This document shows, piece after piece, positions 18,443 to 27,484 of a DNA stretch of 64,000 bases. The stretch's first letter is position 1. Every line of letters starts with the position of its first letter. Where the stretch lies: the NCBI GenBank assembly GCA_003557485.1, contig PWOI01000130.1:1-64000 (forward strand), in the 5' to 3' direction. A program made the position numbers and the translations under genes. The notes under the pieces are model-generated. The model was not told the DNA's origin and did not search any database. It was given only the letters and a program-made list of their open reading frames with translations. The stretch comes from Elusimicrobiota bacterium. Its GTDB lineage: Bacteria > CG03 > SLGR01 > PWQF01.

Positions 18443-18471
18443 ATTATAGCAAAATTCCTTTAATTGTTTAA
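18443..18471 (-). promoter_or_regulatory. probable ptsI promoter with very short leader
   Basis: Minus-strand TATAAT (18448-18443) has the weak TTAAAC (18471-18466) 17 bases upstream, overlapping the stop codon of the preceding gene. Predicted transcript start is near 18436. Confidence 0.4.
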
Positions 18472-18836
18472 TTCAAATCAGGCCGGTCAATTATCCCCCG
18501 GCAGGCAGGGAATCTTCTGCATCCCATAAATTTTTTTCCTTTATATCTACCGGTTTTTGCAGCCCTGACAACCATTCCGGAACCGCATTCAGGGCATATA
18601 TTAGTTGCTTTTTGTCTTTTTCTTTCTGAAAACTTCTTTCTTCCGAAAGGACGCATAAAGCCATTTACTTTATTTTTTGACAAAACACCTTTAATCATAT
18701 CAAACGCCGCAAAGATCATTAAACCTGCGGCAAGTATAATAAAAAGAGGGGCAACCCGGCCGGCTAAAGTAATCAGCAAGTAGAGCAAACCGCATACAAT
18801 TAATAATTTTAAAATGGCAATATTATATCTGCGCAT
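18468..18836 (-). CDS. membrane protein with topoisomerase-type zinc ribbon
   Basis: The N-terminal 45 residues contain two closely spaced membrane helices (about 9-24 and 26-45). A basic stretch leads to a C-terminal zinc ribbon at about 78-115: CPECGSGMVVR, then GKKFMGCRRFPACRG, the four-cysteine pattern seen in the C-terminal repeats of type IA topoisomerases. It likely holds zinc and may touch nucleic acid on the cytoplasmic face. Proteins like this are common and uncharacterised. It lies 24 bases behind the YhaN-like gene and is probably co-transcribed with it. Confidence 0.75.
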   Translation of the reverse strand: MRRYNIAILKLLIVCGLLYLLITLAGRVAPLFIILAAGLMIFAAFDMIKGVLSKNKVNGFMRPFGRKKFSERKRQKATNICPECGSGMVVRAAKTGRYKGKKFMGCRRFPACRGIIDRPDLN

Positions 18837-18860: not shown

Positions 18861-20930
18861 TCAGCCGATTTCGCTTAATGAGAATCCGCAGGAAGATTTG
18901 GCCGCGTACTTCTTAAAGAGATCTCTTATATGATCATCCATTGTGAAATAAAACACCTGCCATCCTGATTCGGAAAGTGCAACAGCCCTGTCAACCATTT
19001 TTTCCCGACGTTTCCAGTCGGAATACTGAAAGGCGTCGTCCAGTATAAAAAACATCCTGTTTTTTCCTAAAAGCCGGGCTGCCATTCCTATACGCAGGCC
19101 AAGGAAAATCTGCTCGCGGGCGCCGTCACTGACTTCGTCAAGGCCGTACTCTGCGTAACCGTCCGACAGGTACAGCTTGTTCTCTTTTAGTTTAAAAGAC
19201 TTATATTTCGCAGTAAACTTCTCAACGGGTTCTTTCAGTTCCTGATTTTCAAGCGCCATACGAACCTTTTCTTCTTCTCTTCCAGACATTTCATCAATAA
19301 CACTTGCAAGGCAGGCGGTTCCTATTATTCCGGCTGTTGTCTGTCTGTATTCCTGCTGCACAATGCGGCGAGTTTGAAGAAGACTGTCTATAAGTTTTTC
19401 ATCATCAACGGCATCAGAACCTGTAATACGGACTATTCGTGTTCTAATATCATCCAACGGTTCCCTTAGTTTCTGAAGTATTTCCTGCTGTTTCTGAAGT
19501 TCTTCAATGGTTTTTTCTTCTTTTTTCTCATCATAATCGGAGGGTTCTTCACTTTTTATAAAGTCCTCTTCTTTTACTTTAAGTGACGCCAGCTCGCTGC
19601 TGCACTGGTTAATTTTTTTCTCTGTTTCCTTCCTTGTATTTTCCTGCTGTTTTATTGTTTCTTCCCAGTCTTTTTCATCCGGAAGAGGCTTTGTAATATC
19701 AAGGAGCCACTTTTCTATTTTCGAGCCAGCATCCGTTATCCTATCCTCAATATTCAAAAGGTTTTCCCGGACAGCTTCCAGTTTATGACTGATTTCTGTC
19801 AGTTGAGAAATTTTACTTTTGATTGTTGAAAAATCCTTTAATTCTTCTGCAAAATGCTCCCGGTAAGTATCTTTTATATTATCAACCTCCCGGTCGGAAC
19901 TTATGCTGCGCGGTTTCATGAGCAGAACTGCTGCCGCTGAAGCAAGCATCGCAGCCAGCGCTGCCGGAGGATAAATAAAGACAAGAAGCGCAGATGCAGC
20001 TATTAAGGTTATTATGAGGCCACGGTAAAAACCGGGAGAGGCACCATCGCTTATTATAGATTCGTATGTTTCACGGGCTTCTTCAAGCCAGGGGAGATAT
20101 TTAATCTGTTCTTCTTTGTATTTTATTTCAACTCTTTTTTCAGATGCTTCACGCTTAAGGTTTTTCCTGGCGGAAACTTCCAGGGAAAGCTTTTTGAGGT
20201 GTTCCTCTCCCGGCATATCCTGCAGGCGTTTTCGGAGCTGTTCTATTGTACTGCTTAACTTAAACGCATAGCGCCTTCTTGATTCCTCGTGCTGTTTTTT
20301 TTCCTTTTCAAGTTTTTCTATATACCTCTTACAGTCAACAAGAGGCCCGAGACTGTACCTGCTGTTTAAATCCTCTTTAAGCTTGTCTATCTGTTGCAGC
20401 TTTTCGGCAGCGTTTTCCCTGCTTTTAACAATACCAAGTCCCCCGGGTATATTAATGGCGTTTTCTTCAATTACTGCCTTTCTGAGAGTTTTCCCTATTT
20501 TTCCGTCTATTTCCGAAAGAATCTTTTTCCCGGAAAGATAGGCTTTCAATACTTCCATGTGATTGTCAGCACTTATTTCTTTTGTTGATATCTCGCTGTG
20601 GGCACCTTTTATTATCATAAGTTTGTCTATCTCAGCAGGGAGGCCCGGGAGACCCTCCTGAAGGTAGTCGTTAAGGCTTTCAGGCGAAGACGGAGTAAAA
20701 GCCGTTCCTTTTTTATCCGCCCCTTCTATAATTATCTTCCCTTCCGGTGAAATTTCCCTTAAATCCCAGTTTTTCCCGAAAAGACAGCTGATTATGAATT
20801 CCACAAGGAAGGTCTTGCCTGATTCATTTTTTCCGTAAACAAGATTAAGGTCTTCCGCTTTCAGGGAGAACCTGTCAACGGGTCCGAGTTTTCTTACATT
20901 TATCTCTTTTATTCTTATGCTTGAACTCAT
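18861..20930 (-). CDS. YhaN-type SMC-like AAA ATPase
   Basis: An ATPase of the RecF/SbcC/YhaN type, 689 residues. Walker A is YGKNESGKT near 32-40 and the C-terminal half supplies the signature (DEVSDGAREQIFLGLRIG) and Walker B (FFILDDAF), with a long coiled coil between (about 170-560). A hydrophobic hairpin (about 300-335) interrupts the coiled coil, as in Bacillus YhaN, suggesting membrane attachment. It pairs with the nuclease encoded just upstream (overlap 4 bases). Like SbcCD or Rad50-Mre11, the pair should act on DNA ends or hairpins. The pair is found in many bacteria but its job is little studied. Confidence 0.85.
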   Translation of the reverse strand: MSSSIRIKEINVRKLGPVDRFSLKAEDLNLVYGKNESGKTFLVEFIISCLFGKNWDLREISPEGKIIIEGADKKGTAFTPSSPESLNDYLQEGLPGLPAEIDKLMIIKGAHSEISTKEISADNHMEVLKAYLSGKKILSEIDGKIGKTLRKAVIEENAINIPGGLGIVKSRENAAEKLQQIDKLKEDLNSRYSLGPLVDCKRYIEKLEKEKKQHEESRRRYAFKLSSTIEQLRKRLQDMPGEEHLKKLSLEVSARKNLKREASEKRVEIKYKEEQIKYLPWLEEARETYESIISDGASPGFYRGLIITLIAASALLVFIYPPAALAAMLASAAAVLLMKPRSISSDREVDNIKDTYREHFAEELKDFSTIKSKISQLTEISHKLEAVRENLLNIEDRITDAGSKIEKWLLDITKPLPDEKDWEETIKQQENTRKETEKKINQCSSELASLKVKEEDFIKSEEPSDYDEKKEEKTIEELQKQQEILQKLREPLDDIRTRIVRITGSDAVDDEKLIDSLLQTRRIVQQEYRQTTAGIIGTACLASVIDEMSGREEEKVRMALENQELKEPVEKFTAKYKSFKLKENKLYLSDGYAEYGLDEVSDGAREQIFLGLRIGMAARLLGKNRMFFILDDAFQYSDWKRREKMVDRAVALSESGWQVFYFTMDDHIRDLFKKYAAKSSCGFSLSEIG

Positions 20931-21988
20931 TTTTCGTATATCATCTTCAGTGACTCTTTTATCACATCCTCTTTTGAAGGTGACTCAGACTGAGAAAAAT
21001 CCCACGGCAGTTCTTTATCTATATATTCCAGGCTCTTCAGCGCAAGTTCCATTCTTTCCGGATCCTCGGAAGCGGATATAAGCCGGGATATATCAGGTTC
21101 TTTATCGTAAAAGCAGTATCCGCTGAATTCGTCTTTCAAAGCAAGCCTTGCCTTTTCCCTGTCAGAAGTATAGCCGGAAGCTTTTATTCTTATAAGGCTT
21201 TTTTTCTTTTCCTTATCGGAAAGGCACCACTCTTCTTTCACTTTGCGAGCCTGATCCTTTATGGACTTAATCTCATTCTTAAGCGGGAGAATTAATATGT
21301 CAGCGCTGAAATAAAGCTGCTCCGTTTCAACCGGCAGGCGGCTTACCTCGCCTCCGGAGGTATCAAGAATAATAAAGCTCCTTCGGCCTGTCTCATTTAT
21401 GTGCAGGGGAAATGGGGAACCGGGATAAAAAACCCTTTCGGAATCCATAGGTTTGTGAATATGGCCCAGTATAACTTTAAGGGGGTTAAAACGGGTTATG
21501 TCGGCTCTTGTAAGCGGCATATAAGTCCCTTCCTCAAGCGGATTAATTTCGGTCCGCCCGCCCAGCCAGTCTCCATGACCGGTTATACAGAAAGGTTTTT
21601 CCTTATCAAGTTGCGGCCGGGCCTGTTCTATACTTTCTCCCATTGATTTTCCGGCAGCGTACGGTATAAACATAATCTGCATCCCGCTGAACTCTTTTAC
21701 TGAAGGAGTGCAATAGACATTTACATTGTCCCCAAGAATTTTTCCCGTATCAAGTATTGGGTCGTGATTCCCCGGAATTATATGGAAGTTTATGGCTGGT
21801 TCTGAAATGCAGAGCCTTTCAAAATCGTTGGAGGGAGAACCTTCACTGTCAAAAACATCCCCGGCCAGAACAAGTTCGGTGATTTTTTCCTTTTTAATAT
21901 TAGCGAGTATATTTTCAAAAGCCCTGAAGCGACCGGGTGCTTCACGGGAACTTTTTAAATGGAGGTCCGCTGTGAAAGCTATTTTCAT
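20927..21988 (-). CDS. YhaO-type DNA repair metallophosphoesterase (SbcD/Mre11-like)
   Basis: A calcineurin-like phosphoesterase: ADLHLKSS (residue 7 on), VLAGDVFDSEG, IPGNHDP, CITGHGDWLGG and ILGHIHKPM are the five metal-binding motifs in order. The 353 residues include a C-terminal capping region (about 235-350) as in SbcD. It should be the nuclease partner of the ATPase encoded next. The gene opens with TTGACT-17-TAAAAT placed 6 bases before the ATG, so the mRNA is probably leaderless. The divergent zinc-ribbon/OB-fold operon starts 135 bases away on the other strand. Confidence 0.88.
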   Translation of the reverse strand: MKIAFTADLHLKSSREAPGRFRAFENILANIKKEKITELVLAGDVFDSEGSPSNDFERLCISEPAINFHIIPGNHDPILDTGKILGDNVNVYCTPSVKEFSGMQIMFIPYAAGKSMGESIEQARPQLDKEKPFCITGHGDWLGGRTEINPLEEGTYMPLTRADITRFNPLKVILGHIHKPMDSERVFYPGSPFPLHINETGRRSFIILDTSGGEVSRLPVETEQLYFSADILILPLKNEIKSIKDQARKVKEEWCLSDKEKKKSLIRIKASGYTSDREKARLALKDEFSGYCFYDKEPDISRLISASEDPERMELALKSLEYIDKELPWDFSQSESPSKEDVIKESLKMIYEK

Positions 21989-22050: not shown

Positions 22051-22079
22051 TTGACGAAAAGTAAGGCAGAAGTTATAAT
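22051..22079 (+). promoter_or_regulatory. sigma-70-type promoter of the OB-fold/TctA/hydrolase operon
   Basis: TTGACG (22051-22056), 17 bases, TATAAT (22074-22079). Transcription should start near 22086, giving a 37-base leader with AGGAG before the ATG at 22123. Confidence 0.75.
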
Positions 22080-22122
22080 TTTTATAGTACGCTCAGGCAA
22101 AGCTAAACAGGAGTATAAAAAA

Positions 22123-23379
22123 ATGACTCAGGAAAACATTAACCCTCCCAAAGACAAGTCCGGTGAAATAAAGGGCTCCGGATCTTACGAGTCCAACTGC
22201 CAGGTCTGCGGATATTATGTAGGGGCATCTTCAGTGTGCCACCGGTGCGGCGCCGGAACTAAGACAAGAACATCCATAAGAACGGTAAGGCTTGTTGCTC
22301 TTATCGGCTCCATAATCGGAGTAATTCTTCTCTGGGTGGCCGCATTTATTAAACAGCCTGATTTTATAAATATAGGTGATATCACGCCTACCATGAATAA
22401 TGCGCTGGTAGTAATTGAAGGAAGTGTTGTAGAATCAATACAGGATACCGAAACAAATACCTTCCGTATGACTGTATCAGACAATACCGGCAATATACGC
22501 ATAAACGCCTTCAACCATCTTGAAAGTTTCCGCAGACATTTTGACGGCCGCCTTCCTTCTGTCGGTGATACTGTCAGCGTAACGGGTGCCCTCAATATTA
22601 CCCAGGCCTGGGGAGCGGCTATGTTTCTCAGTATACCGGAAAGAGTGCGCGTCATTGAAAAATTTGAAATGAAGGAAATCCCGATAGGAGATATAACAGT
22701 TGGCCATTCGGGACAGCTGTTCCGCATTTCCGCTGAAGTGGCTGATTATGAACCGGGTCAAACCCGCGCCGGAGATCCGATGCACAGGATAACATTCCGC
22801 GACAATACGGGAAGAATATCTATGGTCCTCTGGGACAACCAGTTTCAAGCTCTTTCCGAAGAAGCCCGGAAAGCAATCTCAAGGCCTGGAAGCAGGCTTA
22901 AACTTGCTGTCCGAGGAAGCGCTTTCCGGGACGAACCCCAGATTGAATTAATTGATCCGGAATCCCCGGATATGGCAGAGGTAGTAAGCATATCCGATAC
23001 TGAGCTGCCGGCTCCAAGTCGCGTCTCTCCCCTCGACCGGCTTAACTCAATGAAAATAGGCGACATAACAACCGCCCACGCGGGCAGAACTTTTAAGATA
23101 ACGGTGACTGTAGAAGAGTACGAACTGGGACAGACCCGGGCCGGGGACCCGATGCACAGGGTAACGCTGGGAGATGAAACGGATATTATATCAATGGTTA
23201 TATGGGCAACCCAGTTTGACTCCCTGCCCGGCAATGCCCGGGGAGCTTTTACAACCAAGGGCAGCAAGCTCACAATAGCTGTAGAGGGAGGTGAATTCAG
23301 GGGGCAGCCTCAGGTCTCTCTTATGGACGCTTCTGATCCGGAAACGATAAAAGTCCTGAGTGTAGGAGAGGGACGCTGA
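22123..23379 (+). CDS. membrane protein with zinc ribbon and three OB-fold domains
   Basis: The 418-residue protein starts with a four-cysteine ribbon (CQVCG at 26-30, CHRCG at 39-43), then one membrane helix (about 57-77), then three domains of about 100 residues each that look like OB folds of the tRNA-anti/RPA type. Domains two and three are close copies: both contain GQTRAGDPMHR followed by a matching strand and SMV-W segment. A reading from 22051 exists but would start inside the -35 box. OB folds facing outside, if topology is N-in, could bind oligosaccharide or nucleic acid. It starts an operon with the permease (1-base gap). Function unknown. Confidence 0.75.
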   Translation: MTQENINPPKDKSGEIKGSGSYESNCQVCGYYVGASSVCHRCGAGTKTRTSIRTVRLVALIGSIIGVILLWVAAFIKQPDFINIGDITPTMNNALVVIEGSVVESIQDTETNTFRMTVSDNTGNIRINAFNHLESFRRHFDGRLPSVGDTVSVTGALNITQAWGAAMFLSIPERVRVIEKFEMKEIPIGDITVGHSGQLFRISAEVADYEPGQTRAGDPMHRITFRDNTGRISMVLWDNQFQALSEEARKAISRPGSRLKLAVRGSAFRDEPQIELIDPESPDMAEVVSISDTELPAPSRVSPLDRLNSMKIGDITTAHAGRTFKITVTVEEYELGQTRAGDPMHRVTLGDETDIISMVIWATQFDSLPGNARGAFTTKGSKLTIAVEGGEFRGQPQVSLMDASDPETIKVLSVGEGR

Positions 23380-23380
23380 A

Positions 23381-24802
23381 ATGATCTATTATTATATACC
23401 GGTTATTACATTCTATGTACTGCTGGGAACTCTGGCCGGGGCAATACTCTGTTTTATTCCCGCACTTCATATATATAACGTAGCGGGAATCGCGATAGTT
23501 GCATGGCTGACCGCCCGGCACCTGGTTCCTTATTACGCAGTAGCTCCGTTTTTCATGTCTCTTGTCGTAGCGTTTTCCTTTATGAATACCATACCGATGA
23601 CTTTTTTCAATACTGTAGACGAATCAGCCGGAGCAACTCTGCTGCCTTCAAATGCAATGGTAATGAGGGGAAGGGGAACAGAAGCGGCCATAATGAGCGG
23701 ACTGGGAACTTTAATGGGAGCTTTTCTTCTAATCGCCCTTACTCCTTTCTTTTTTTATATATGGCCTTACCTCGCTGTTATTTTCGGAGGACACCTTCAC
23801 TGGATACTGGGCCTTGTGATAGTACACTATATAATGAGCGAATGGCCCAAAGGCGCGGGACGCGGCAAGACGCCTTTCAAAAGATGGGCGGAAGCCTGCA
23901 GGAACTGCTTTGCCGGAATGCTGACCTTTTTTCTTGCTGCGGTTTTCGGGCTTATATTTTTAACCAAACCTATTCTTCCCCCTGAACTTGCTTTTCAGAA
24001 TATTATGCCGGTTTTTGTCGGTTTTTTTGCTGTACCTTCAATAATCCAGTCTCTTCTTTCAAAGTTTAAGCCCCCACAACAGTACAAACCAAAAAGCATA
24101 AACGCAGACTGGAAGGATTTTTCTTACGGACTTCTGCCCGGTTTTGTAGGAGGAATGCTTGCGGCTTACCTTCCGGCTGTAACAGCCGGCATAGGAGCAA
24201 TGCTGGCCGGACATACAACCAATCACCGCAACCTGGACAGGGCAAGGTTCCGGGCGCCGCTGGAAGAAGGTGAAATAATACACCTTGAAACCCCCGAAAT
24301 GTATTACAGGCAGGAGCGCAACTTCTTAATTGCAGGAGGAGTCGGAAAAATACTTTATTATGTCGGCGCTTTTCTTCTGCTGTTTACCATAACAGAGCTT
24401 ACTCCCTACGGAACCGGCCGGGGCGGCCTTGCTTTCATACTAAGGCCGGTCTTTTCAGCCGAGCCCGGTGACTTCTTTGTGATGGCATCTACAATAGTAT
24501 TCAGCGGCTCCATTGCCTTCCTGATGCTAATTAAAGGTTCTCGCATAGCAGCTGAAATATCCCCTAAAATAAATATTACGGTTATGTATTCGCTGGTTTT
24601 GATAGCACTTTCTGCAATAGTTTATTTCATTGCAGGAGGATGGATAGGAATAGCGATTATGGCTGCCACAACCTGTATAGGAATGATACCGGTTTTCTAC
24701 GGCTGCCGCAGGAGCCACTGTATGGCGGTGCTTCTGGTTCCTATAGCTCTCAATATGGCCGGTTACGGCGAAAGCATAGCCCGGCTGCTGGGACTGGTAT
24801 AA
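23381..24802 (+). CDS. TctA-family permease of the archaeal (COG1784) type
   Basis: The 473 residues form about 11-12 membrane helices. The segment NTIPMTFFNTVDESAGATLL, then LPSNAMVMRGRGTEAAIMSG (about 68-105), fits the TctA/DUF112 signature, especially the shorter archaeal COG1784 form. A second half repeats the glycine-rich motif (LLPGFVGGMLAAYLP near 250). Classical TctA works with a small TctB and a periplasmic TctC to import tricarboxylates. Neither is here; instead it is flanked by an OB-fold membrane protein and a membrane hydrolase, so a different substrate or mechanism is possible. The start is 1 base after the upstream stop. Confidence 0.75.
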   Translation: MIYYYIPVITFYVLLGTLAGAILCFIPALHIYNVAGIAIVAWLTARHLVPYYAVAPFFMSLVVAFSFMNTIPMTFFNTVDESAGATLLPSNAMVMRGRGTEAAIMSGLGTLMGAFLLIALTPFFFYIWPYLAVIFGGHLHWILGLVIVHYIMSEWPKGAGRGKTPFKRWAEACRNCFAGMLTFFLAAVFGLIFLTKPILPPELAFQNIMPVFVGFFAVPSIIQSLLSKFKPPQQYKPKSINADWKDFSYGLLPGFVGGMLAAYLPAVTAGIGAMLAGHTTNHRNLDRARFRAPLEEGEIIHLETPEMYYRQERNFLIAGGVGKILYYVGAFLLLFTITELTPYGTGRGGLAFILRPVFSAEPGDFFVMASTIVFSGSIAFLMLIKGSRIAAEISPKINITVMYSLVLIALSAIVYFIAGGWIGIAIMAATTCIGMIPVFYGCRRSHCMAVLLVPIALNMAGYGESIARLLGLV

Positions 24803-24805
24803 GCC

Positions 24806-25960
24806 GTGAAGGGGTTAACCCATTTTGTTTCCGGAGTTGCGGCGGCAACATTTATTCCGCAGGTTGTCAGGATGTCTGCAGCGGGAAGAATGGATGTCAC
24901 CGGCGCGGCGTCAAGTTTTATAATAGTCCTGGCGGGAATGTACGGCATAATGCCCGACACACTTGATTTTAAAGTCGGTCAATTTTTTGACAAACCAGAC
25001 ATAATTGTCGACCCCGACCCTCTTGATCCCGACCCAAAGGAGATGGCCCAAAAGTTTGCAGAAGCCGTAAGCCGTTCGGCGCGTGAAGGACGTATGATAA
25101 AAATACAGTATATGCCTATACAGCTAGGGGCCAACCGCTGGAGACAGTATCTCATCATATTCGGTGAAAAAGAAGTCAGCGTTCAGATTAACGAGGTTGT
25201 CAGCACTTCACAGATACCATACCAGGGAACTGCGCCTGACCCGGAAAAACGTTCCGCCACAGTTCCTCTAAGTCACAGGATAAAACCAACATCCTGTGAT
25301 ACCGACACCCTTAACAGGCTGGTCAGGAAAACCAGAAGATTTCTCAAGGGGGGAGAAAAAGAAAAAACTACCGTAAAGCCCTCTACTATAGATATCCTTT
25401 CCGGCACCACTTTCGGACTAAAAATGGAGTCAGACGGTGATATTTATTTTGACTGGCTTCCGTGGCACCGGACCTGGAGCCACAGTTATATACTGGGTCT
25501 GATGCTTGCCGCGCCCTGGGCGCTGGCGGCCTACCTTTTTAAACTTGATATGTGGTGGATGTACGGAGTTGTGGCATTCCTGGGTTTTGCAGTGCACATT
25601 ACAGAGGATATGACCGGCCACATAGGGGGATCGCTTCTATGGCCCTTTTTAAAACCCAGGACGGAAGGTTTTGAAATGTTTAAGGCATCGGACCCCAGAA
25701 CCAATTTCAGCATTATATACGCAGGTTTCATTCTTATAGTTTTCAACCTCGACAGGTTCACTACAAACCTACTTACCGGGGGACCTGAATCGATATGGAG
25801 CTGGTGGTCCTTCCTCCTGGTTTTTCTTATTCTTCCTCTTGCCGTTTATTTTAAAATAGCAGCAAGAATATTAAAAAGGATAAAAAAAAGGGAAGCCGGA
25901 CTCAAATTTACCCGCGAGGAAGAAGAACCTGACGGGACAGGGGATCCTGTCATAGACTGA
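24806..25960 (+). CDS. membrane-bound metal-dependent hydrolase (DUF457/YdjM type)
   Basis: A 384-residue membrane protein starting GTG, 3 bases after the permease stop. MKGLTHFVSGVAAA at the start, MPDTLDF (about 52), WHRTWSHSYILG (about 222) and ITEDMTGHIGGSLLWPF (about 265) give the histidine/aspartate set of the DUF457/COG1988 family of putative integral-membrane hydrolases. Between the first and second halves there is a soluble insert (about 65-200) with no recognised domain, larger than in YdjM. A hydrophobic C-terminus and charged tail follow. Substrate unknown; E. coli YdjM is SOS-induced, but no LexA-like site was seen here. Confidence 0.75.
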   Translation: MKGLTHFVSGVAAATFIPQVVRMSAAGRMDVTGAASSFIIVLAGMYGIMPDTLDFKVGQFFDKPDIIVDPDPLDPDPKEMAQKFAEAVSRSAREGRMIKIQYMPIQLGANRWRQYLIIFGEKEVSVQINEVVSTSQIPYQGTAPDPEKRSATVPLSHRIKPTSCDTDTLNRLVRKTRRFLKGGEKEKTTVKPSTIDILSGTTFGLKMESDGDIYFDWLPWHRTWSHSYILGLMLAAPWALAAYLFKLDMWWMYGVVAFLGFAVHITEDMTGHIGGSLLWPFLKPRTEGFEMFKASDPRTNFSIIYAGFILIVFNLDRFTTNLLTGGPESIWSWWSFLLVFLILPLAVYFKIAARILKRIKKREAGLKFTREEEEPDGTGDPVID

Positions 25961-25977: not shown

Positions 25978-26418
25978 TTACCGGGCCAGATTCTGCCGGC
26001 CTATATAGTTGCCGTGCAGGTTGCAGTGTGAAACAACAGCCAGTTCTCCTTCTGAAGTCTTGAGATGAAGGGATACTGCCGGATTCATATGTGCCGGATC
26101 AAATTTAATCCGGGATATGAACTCATTGTCCAGATACAGATCAACAAACATAATCCAGTGTTTGTCCGGCTCCATAGGATGGAGTGTGCTTCCCACTTTT
26201 ATATGGGCGTCAACACAGCCTTCAGCCATAGAACAATCACCGCTTAAGGTAATCTCCGGGACATGTTTCTCTTTTAGTCCGGATTCGTCAGCATCCGTTT
26301 TTAAGGCGTCTTCCTGTTCTTCAAACTGGCTTGCCGGCGCGCCGCACTGTGGGCACTTTTCCGGAGGAGCATCTTTGAGCTCAACATATCCGCACATTTT
26401 GCATACAAATTTTTTCAT
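25978..26418 (-). CDS. superoxide reductase with N-terminal rubredoxin-like domain
   Basis: Residues 1-35 are a rubredoxin-type knuckle pair (CKMCG and CPQCG). Residues 48-146 are the superoxide reductase domain with all five iron ligands visible: H52 in EKHVPEI, H80 in LHPM, H87 in KHWIMF, C132 and H135 in HCNLHG. A glutamate (E50) next to the first His is also kept. It reduces superoxide to peroxide without making O2. The desulforedoxin part of classical desulfoferrodoxin is replaced by a rubredoxin-like one. It follows rubrerythrin by 17 bases in a peroxide/superoxide defence operon with perR. Confidence 0.92.
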   Translation of the reverse strand: MKKFVCKMCGYVELKDAPPEKCPQCGAPASQFEEQEDALKTDADESGLKEKHVPEITLSGDCSMAEGCVDAHIKVGSTLHPMEPDKHWIMFVDLYLDNEFISRIKFDPAHMNPAVSLHLKTSEGELAVVSHCNLHGNYIGRQNLAR

Positions 26419-26435
26419 TTTGTTTCTCCTAATTT

Positions 26436-27011
26436 TTACCAGTTTTCGCAGAGCGCTTCAAAATGGGCCTGGGGATGTGCGCAAGCGGGACATTTCTGGA
26501 CAGCTTCATCTCCTTCGTGAACATATCCGCAGTTAAGGCATCTCCATGTTAAGCTCTGGTCTTTTTTGAAAACTTTTCCGTTTTCAATATTTGCCGCAAG
26601 CGCCCTGTATCGTTTTTCGTGCTGTTTTTCGGCAACGGCTATTGATTCCATCGCAGACGCTATTTCTTCAAAACCCTCTTCCCTTGCTGTGTCTGCAAAA
26701 GAGGGGTACATTTCAGTCCACTCATGATTTTCTCCATCTGCAGCGGCCTTAAGATTTTCAACGGTGCTTTTAATTTCACCTGCAGGAAATCCGGCCGTTA
26801 TTTCAACTTCTCCGCCTTTGAGAAACTTGAAGAGCCTTTTGGCGTGTTCTCTCTCCTGGTTGGCAGTCTCCTCAAAAATTTCAGACATCTGCCTGTATCC
26901 TTCCTTTCTAGCTACAGATGAATAATAGGTGTAGCGGTTACGCGCCTGTGACTCACCTGAGAATGCTTTCAGCAGGTTTTTTTCCGTTTCGGTTCCTTTT
27001 AATGAACTCAT
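26436..27011 (-). CDS. rbr: rubrerythrin
   Basis: Classical rubrerythrin, 191 residues. The ferritin-like diiron domain comes first ([33 protein letters not shown], then [15 protein letters not shown], carrying the ExxH motifs), then a rubredoxin domain ([12 protein letters not shown] and [14 protein letters not shown]). It reduces hydrogen peroxide to water with electrons from rubredoxin or NAD(P)H oxidoreductases. GGAGGA precedes the ATG. It lies 50 bases after perR and 17 bases before the superoxide reductase. A reverse rubrerythrin, with the rubredoxin domain first, is at 54178. Confidence 0.95.
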
Positions 27012-27061
27012 TTCAGTCCTCCTTCTTTCTTTTTAACTTCTTCCGTCATAACCTTAAGTTC

Positions 27062-27484
27062 CTATTTTTCACTTTCTCTGCAATTGCGGCACTGCCCCCT
27101 GAAATAACCCTGAATACTGTCTATGGCATGCCCTTCTATATCCTTTTTTCTGAAGAAAGATGGCATTATATCCAGATCATAAACTATGCCGCATATATCA
27201 CATACAAAATGAAAATGAGGATCAGGGTTTGAATCAAAACCGGCCAATCCCTCAGAAACCGTTAACTTCATAGCAAGTCCTTTTTCGGCAAATAGGTTAA
27301 GTGTATTATATACTGATGTTTTTGAAAGAACCGGAAGTTCTTCCTTTAAATCTCTGTATACAGTATCCACCCCGGGATGATCAGTATTATTTTCAAGGTA
27401 CTCAAGGATCTTAAGCCTTATGAGAGTTGGGGATATGTCCCTGTTTTTAAGTTTTTCTTTAAATCTTTCCATTTTTGTATTCAT
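27062..27484 (-). CDS. perR: Fur-family repressor, PerR-like
   Basis: The 140-residue product has a winged helix N-terminus (PTLIRLKILEYLENNTDHPG, YNTLNLFAEKGL) and the dimerisation domain with DPHFHFVCDICG and CRNCRE, the paired CxxC structural zinc site. Its place ahead of rbr and the superoxide reductase points to PerR rather than Fur: it would sense peroxide through metal-catalysed oxidation of His residues. The promoter carries a 7-bp inverted repeat, so autoregulation is likely. The ATG at 27484 coincides with the predicted transcript start, so the mRNA would be leaderless; a second ATG four codons in (27472) has no Shine-Dalgarno either. Confidence 0.9.
   Translation of the reverse strand: MNTKMERFKEKLKNRDISPTLIRLKILEYLENNTDHPGVDTVYRDLKEELPVLSKTSVYNTLNLFAEKGLAMKLTVSEGLAGFDSNPDPHFHFVCDICGIVYDLDIMPSFFRKKDIEGHAIDSIQGYFRGQCRNCRESEK

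Follow-up and report, generated by a model that had tools for sequence, protein, structure and literature searches.

A three-gene unit joining an OB-fold protein, an archaeal-type TctA permease and DUF457, with a possible role in nucleic-acid translocation

How DNA crosses the cytoplasmic membrane of archaea is a standing question, and in bacteria ComEC is, to our knowledge, the sole accepted DNA-uptake channel. In the archaeon Methanococcus maripaludis, an OB-fold protein with one transmembrane (TM) helix (MMJJ_13020) and a TctA-like protein with 11 TM helices (MMJJ_13030) are each essential for natural transformation, as established by a transposon screen and by clean deletions, either of which abolishes transformation, with complementation shown; a TctA homologue is essential for transformation in Methanoculleus thermophilus as well (PMC10133366). 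An earlier prediction for archaeal arCOG04469, which predates the transformation data, was a transporter working without TctB and TctC (PMC5898192). In ComEC, a single polypeptide provides the OB fold, the channel and the metal nuclease (PMC12455585). The operon described here bears on the archaeal question and comes from a 64,000-nucleotide stretch of an Elusimicrobiota bacterium (contig PWOI01000130.1, assembly GCA_003557485.1), called the window below. It was confirmed at 22123-25960 on the + strand and encodes a zinc-ribbon/OB-fold protein (gene 1), an archaeal-type TctA permease (gene 2) and a DUF457/YdjM membrane protein (gene 3).

OB-TctA-DUF457 is a genuine, widely scattered three-gene system. 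Judged by homology, what is already known is the OB-TctA pair, of which the operon appears to be a DUF457-bearing variant. The reading we hold with moderate confidence is that the operon encodes a complex that translocates nucleic acid across the cytoplasmic membrane, most likely in DNA uptake, and shares descent with the archaeal transformation pair. An earlier note on this DNA knew of no described system with this set of genes, a statement that is not supported in view of the archaeal pair and its requirement for M. maripaludis transformation (PMC10133366). No published description was found of the three-gene set, nor of an OB-TctA unit with DUF457, with the zinc ribbon or in bacteria.

Conservation of the three-gene unit

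When 84,980 species genomes were scanned for relatives of gene 2, 18 loci came up, labelled Elusimicrobia, Lindowbacteria, Muiribacteriota, Ozemobacteraceae, CSSED10-310, Sumerlaeota, further bacteria and one Hodarchaeaceae archaeon, and wherever the contig was long enough an OB gene lay upstream of TctA and a DUF457 gene downstream. An independent search with a DUF457 profile matched 20 of 386 bacterial genomes, and wherever the contig sufficed, TctA was the next gene and the OB gene lay on its far side. The long TctA is found in 9 of 247 archaeal genomes, each time with the three genes in this order, and some of them have two OB genes. Clustering of the neighbours at 38 loci placed TctA at 38, OB at 35 and DUF457 at 35 loci, with no other family widely recurrent, the next cluster being present at 4 loci. 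The earlier note had proposed the OB protein and DUF457 as partners of TctA and had made neighbourhood in other genomes the test of this; the trio proved adjacent wherever the contig allows, as one conserved system at about 35 loci, which come from Elusimicrobiota, roughly twelve further bacterial families and a small number of archaea. Two genomes (G371, loci L071/L072; G638, loci L073/L074) each carry two copies of the whole operon.

Comparison with a same-genus locus (L013) gave ratios of nonsynonymous to synonymous substitution rates (dN/dS) of 0.12 for OB, 0.04 for TctA and 0.04 for DUF457; these low values indicate that all three genes encode functional proteins under purifying selection.

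A TctA relative of any kind is present in 169 of the 247 archaeal genomes, mostly in a shorter form (about 400 aa). In many of these cases, a one-TM PF01336 protein is encoded directly upstream of the short TctA, with no DUF457 gene behind. Homologues of gene 1 align with the short archaeal OB proteins over the TM helix, OB1 and OB2 (hhalign probability 98.9%, E 1.2e-17). Genes 1 and 2 are homologous to the archaeal OB-TctA pair, and the window operon is probably related to it by descent.

Protein architecture and a proposed path across the membrane

The zinc ribbon of gene 1 consists of Cys 26/29/39/42, all four invariant among 16 homologues, and is followed by a TM helix (~58-76) and OB domains at ~80-182, ~185-292 and ~306-418. 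With a Pfam match to PF01336 (E 5.6e-12) and an AlphaFold model of one helix and three OB domains (predicted local distance difference test [pLDDT] score 83), the ribbon, helix and three OB domains that had been read from the letters are borne out. So is the near duplication of two domains, OB2 and OB3 being 47% identical with GQTRAGDPMHR common to both (window 22670-23370); this tandem duplication occurs in the window's genus only, and the number of OB domains differs between homologues. The positive-inside rule gives an N-in orientation for 46 of 55 OB proteins, which predicts a cytoplasmic zinc ribbon and OB domains outside.

The OB model resembles tandem-OB DNA-binding proteins (RPA, 1e-11 to 1e-8; Teb1, 4e-10; HIN-dsDNA, 2e-12), a profile search with gene 1 matched RPA32, and the OB matches above or near the cut-off were nucleic-acid-binding families throughout (PF01336, RPA, RecG and PolIII). 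These matches bear on whether the operon could instead transport another polymer or an amphiphile, such as an oligosaccharide, a lipid-linked sugar or an envelope polymer, in which the OB domains would recognize sugars or proteins and DUF457 would hydrolyze lipids or phosphodiesters. Some OB-fold families do bind oligosaccharides or proteins, DUF457 is an uncharacterised membrane protein family, and a sporadic distribution together with coexistence with ComEC would suit such a transporter. We nevertheless judge it unlikely, as the OB matches are all nucleic-acid-binding, transformation depends on the archaeal relatives (PMC10133366) and no recurrent glycan or lipid genes lie nearby. Of the three substrates guessed at in the earlier note (a polymer, a lipid-linked sugar or a nucleic-acid fragment), nucleic acid is the best supported; the cleavage of the substrate, which the note also suggested, would fall to gene 3.

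Gene 2 matches PF01970 over its full length (E 7e-33). Its hairpins read PALHIYN and LPAVTAG, and the canonical PG(L/I/M)-x without His and the PGxG of the second hairpin were not found in them. In their first hairpin, short and long archaeal-type TctA have P(G/A/S)-x-H-x-x-N in common, whereas the citrate type has PG-x without His. In a TctA tree, the citrate type stood apart from both archaeal types, and the long and short forms made separate branches within the archaeal-type group. TctC was found in none of the 27 host genomes searched, including the window's own (86.6% complete), and in 5 of 14 control genomes, so that the absence noted earlier for this locus extends genome-wide to the host and its relatives. 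For TctB, none adjoins the operon, and no genome search for it was made. The absence of TctC from all 27 hosts weighs strongly against a citrate system, and a citrate transporter whose receptor is encoded elsewhere was rejected on this ground.

An ordinary carboxylate transporter of the tripartite tricarboxylate transporter (TTT) class working without TctB and TctC, as suggested for arCOG04469 (PMC5898192), would agree with membership of the Pfam TctA family and with that earlier prediction. It is very unlikely in view of the changed hairpin motifs, the separate clade, the missing TctC, the constant OB partner of DNA-binding type and the transformation phenotype of the relatives.

Gene 3 matches PF04307 (E 9.6e-13; 48.4 bits against a gathering cut-off of 29) and has a stretch of about 150 aa inserted as an extramembrane domain. 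Alignment of 13 homologues revealed seven invariant residues resembling metal ligands (H6, D51, D54, H221, H226, H264 and D268), all on the side of the membrane that bears the N-terminus; the tail after the last DUF457 helix is positively charged in most, not all, homologues. Together, these features suggest that the metal-like site probably faces the cytoplasm. A catalytic role for gene 3 is suggested by the conserved ligand-like residues only. A structural search with a query model of pLDDT 75 and a weak catalytic loop found no fold or sequence relative of DUF457, nuclease or phospholipase, in the PDB, which neither shows nor excludes such a fold. A literature match to "DUF457" proved to concern DUF4579.

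From these features, we infer for the operon a substrate, a direction, the formation of a complex and a catalytic gene 3, arranged as follows. Gene 1 would be held by its single helix with the ribbon inside and the OB array on the outer face of the cytoplasmic membrane, where the array would bind single-stranded (or opened) nucleic acid in place of a TctC receptor. The TctA-type protein would provide the path through the membrane, and the His/Asp cluster of DUF457 with its inserted domain, predicted to be cytoplasmic, would hydrolyze or trim the arriving strand. A wider proposal, offered tentatively, is that bacteria and some archaea have a second, ComEC-independent nucleic-acid channel, in which three unrelated proteins (TctA, an outward OB-array receptor and a cytoplasmic-face DUF457 nuclease) do the three jobs of ComEC.

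Competence genes and points against DNA uptake

Two observations favor the uptake reading. Ahead of the operon in genus g104 (G371, G638) lie genes for a ComEA-like helix-hairpin-helix (HhH) protein (170-181 aa), a CorA-like protein and a secreted 578-aa fusion that combines the nuclease (beta-lactamase) part of ComEC (TIGR00361 441-663, 6.5e-45) with a PF01336 OB domain and ComEA HhH repeats (9.9e-25). More secreted HhH/OB proteins are encoded about 15 kb away in G371. In G005, a genome of the same order that is 97% complete, the operon, ComEC and the ComEA-like HhH protein are all absent and PilT is kept. The ComEA-like HhH protein is absent from the window's own genus too.

The operon proteins contain no Competence domain (PF03772), and ComEC is encoded elsewhere in the host. 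The C-terminal domain of the host ComEC has lost the HxHxDH nuclease motif, as has ComEC in each of the 7 operon-free genomes tested from the phylum, and this loss was rejected as the reason for having the operon. Outside the phylum, the motif is missing in 11 of 17 hosts and 3 of 13 non-hosts, a weak difference confounded by descent.

Several points weigh against DNA uptake by the operon. ComEC is kept in all bacterial hosts tested, and archaeal hosts carry a second, short-type TctA besides the long one. The long unit is therefore an addition, and a simple replacement of ComEC was rejected; the coexistence also means that DNA has a channel other than the long system, whose own substrate may differ (RNA, short oligonucleotides or nutritional DNA). 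Adjacency to competence genes is found in genus g104 only, and the joint loss in G005 is a single event. Correlation with the type IV pilus is nondiscriminating and was rejected as support, since PilT, present in 19 of 20 hosts, is also present in 317 of 386 background genomes. Taken singly, the OB domains best match tRNA-synthetase anticodon domains, and OB folds bind other ligands too. Nuclease activity of gene 3 is a prediction, given that no fold relative of DUF457 was found. Among the archaeal proteins, MMJJ_13030 is presumably of the short type, judging from its description, and the archaeal TctA, known from its transformation phenotype (PMC10133366), is itself a candidate conduit for DNA.

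Import of oligonucleotides or nucleic-acid fragments for nutrition or salvage, in which DUF457 would degrade the strand as food and transformation would be left to ComEC or the short OB-TctA pair, would account for ComEC in every bacterial host and the short system in archaeal hosts, for the predicted cytoplasmic metal site and for an extra hydrolase being the main difference from the transformation pair. No nucleotide-salvage genes accompany the operon, however, and the activity of DUF457 is a prediction, which leaves salvage somewhat unlikely. Export of nucleic acid or another polymer, such as DNA release with trimming by cytoplasmic DUF457 beforehand, would be compatible with a direction that cannot be read from sequence and with the coexisting importers (ComEC or short OB-TctA), but the relatives with a known genetic phenotype, which are those of Methanococcus and Methanoculleus only, serve in uptake (PMC10133366) and the island contains no ATPase or relaxase partner, so that export is extremely unlikely. 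The system is most likely a nucleic-acid translocator, with DNA uptake as its leading candidate function.

Layout of the locus and comparison with known systems

Features of the operon, its surroundings and related competence loci are collected in Table 1. The genes are packed as tightly as first described, with gaps of 1 base (23380) between genes 1 and 2 and 3 bases (24803-24805) between genes 2 and 3, and the promoter reported with them is present. It matches 11 of 12 consensus positions; promoter-like sites of its kind, 10 found against 5.7 +/- 2.3 expected, are not rare by chance. At L013, the hexamers are kept (TTGACG-17-TATACT) and the spacer has diverged. Gene 1 begins at ATG 22123 with AGGAG ahead, both ribosome-binding site and start being kept in L013; TTG 22051, the start first taken for it, was rejected because it lies inside the promoter (-35 box).

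The neighboring SbcCD-like pair was rejected as part of the system, its position here being found in the window's own genus only. A phage or defense island was likewise rejected, with no PADLOC match, only a weak PHROG match and no phage relatives of DUF457.

Table 1. Coordinates of the operon, neighboring genes and related loci (window positions unless a locus is named)
Feature	Position	Strand	Remarks
SbcD/SbcC-like metallophosphoesterase and coiled-coil ATPase pair	18861-21988	-	Divergent from operon, 62 bases from promoter
Small membrane protein	18468-18836	-	Topoisomerase-type zinc ribbon (PF01396); behind SbcCD-like pair
Sigma-70-like promoter	22051-22079	+	TTGACG-17-TATAAT; 44 bases upstream of gene 1 ATG
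Gene 1	22123-23379	+	Zinc ribbon, one TM helix, three OB-fold domains
Gene 2	23381-24802	+	Archaeal-type TctA permease of the long form (473 aa); P-x-x-H-x-x-N in hairpin 1
Gene 3	24806-25960	+	DUF457/YdjM membrane protein, 384 aa; GTG start
Oxygen-stress cluster	25978-27484	-	Downstream of operon; a desulfoferrodoxin bearing a rubredoxin-like domain (Pfam), followed by genes that resemble rubrerythrin and Fur/PerR in sequence; cluster conserved at L013
ComEC-nuclease/OB/ComEA fusion and ComEA-like gene	L073:622-2355, L073:3581-4123 (G638)		Counterparts on G371 contig C44 (L071, L103, L104)
Host ComEC	L120:1186-3306 (G000 contig C88)		706 aa; DUF4131 and Competence domains kept

With TctABC, the operon shares a permease of PF01970; it differs in lacking TctC, in its changed hairpin motifs, in its partners and in its separate clade. 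Genes of this type should no longer be named tricarboxylate transporters. With YdjM/DUF457 proteins (PF04307), gene 3 shares conserved His and Asp residues and membrane helices; it differs in its inserted domain and in being locked to OB-TctA. E. coli YdjM is a member of the LexA regulon. For Salmonella ydjM, two predicted LexA boxes are listed (PMC8072944).

The likeness to ComEC/ComEA would be one of working: a one-TM DNA-binding protein on the outer face, an OB fold, a membrane channel and a metal hydrolase (PMC12455585 for the ComEC domains). The operon has no sequence kinship to ComEC, however, and no Competence domain, and the host keeps a ComEC of its own. The putative hydrolase of the operon, DUF457, is predicted to face the cytoplasm, whereas that of ComEC is a metallo-beta-lactamase outside.

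Closest is the archaeal pair MMJJ_13020/MMJJ_13030 (COG1784/arCOG04469), which the three-gene unit extends into bacteria and to which it adds DUF457 as a candidate third component; the unit defines residues for mutation, and archaeal-type TctA is no archaeal curiosity. In both, a one-TM OB gene lies directly upstream of an archaeal-type TctA gene, the OB proteins are homologous beyond a generic fold, the TctA hairpin motif is common and TctC is missing. The window type departs from the pair in its TctA, which is longer (440-475 versus ~400 aa) and forms its own clade, in the zinc ribbon and multiple OB domains of gene 1, in the constant presence of DUF457 as a third gene and in its occurrence in bacteria that have ComEC.

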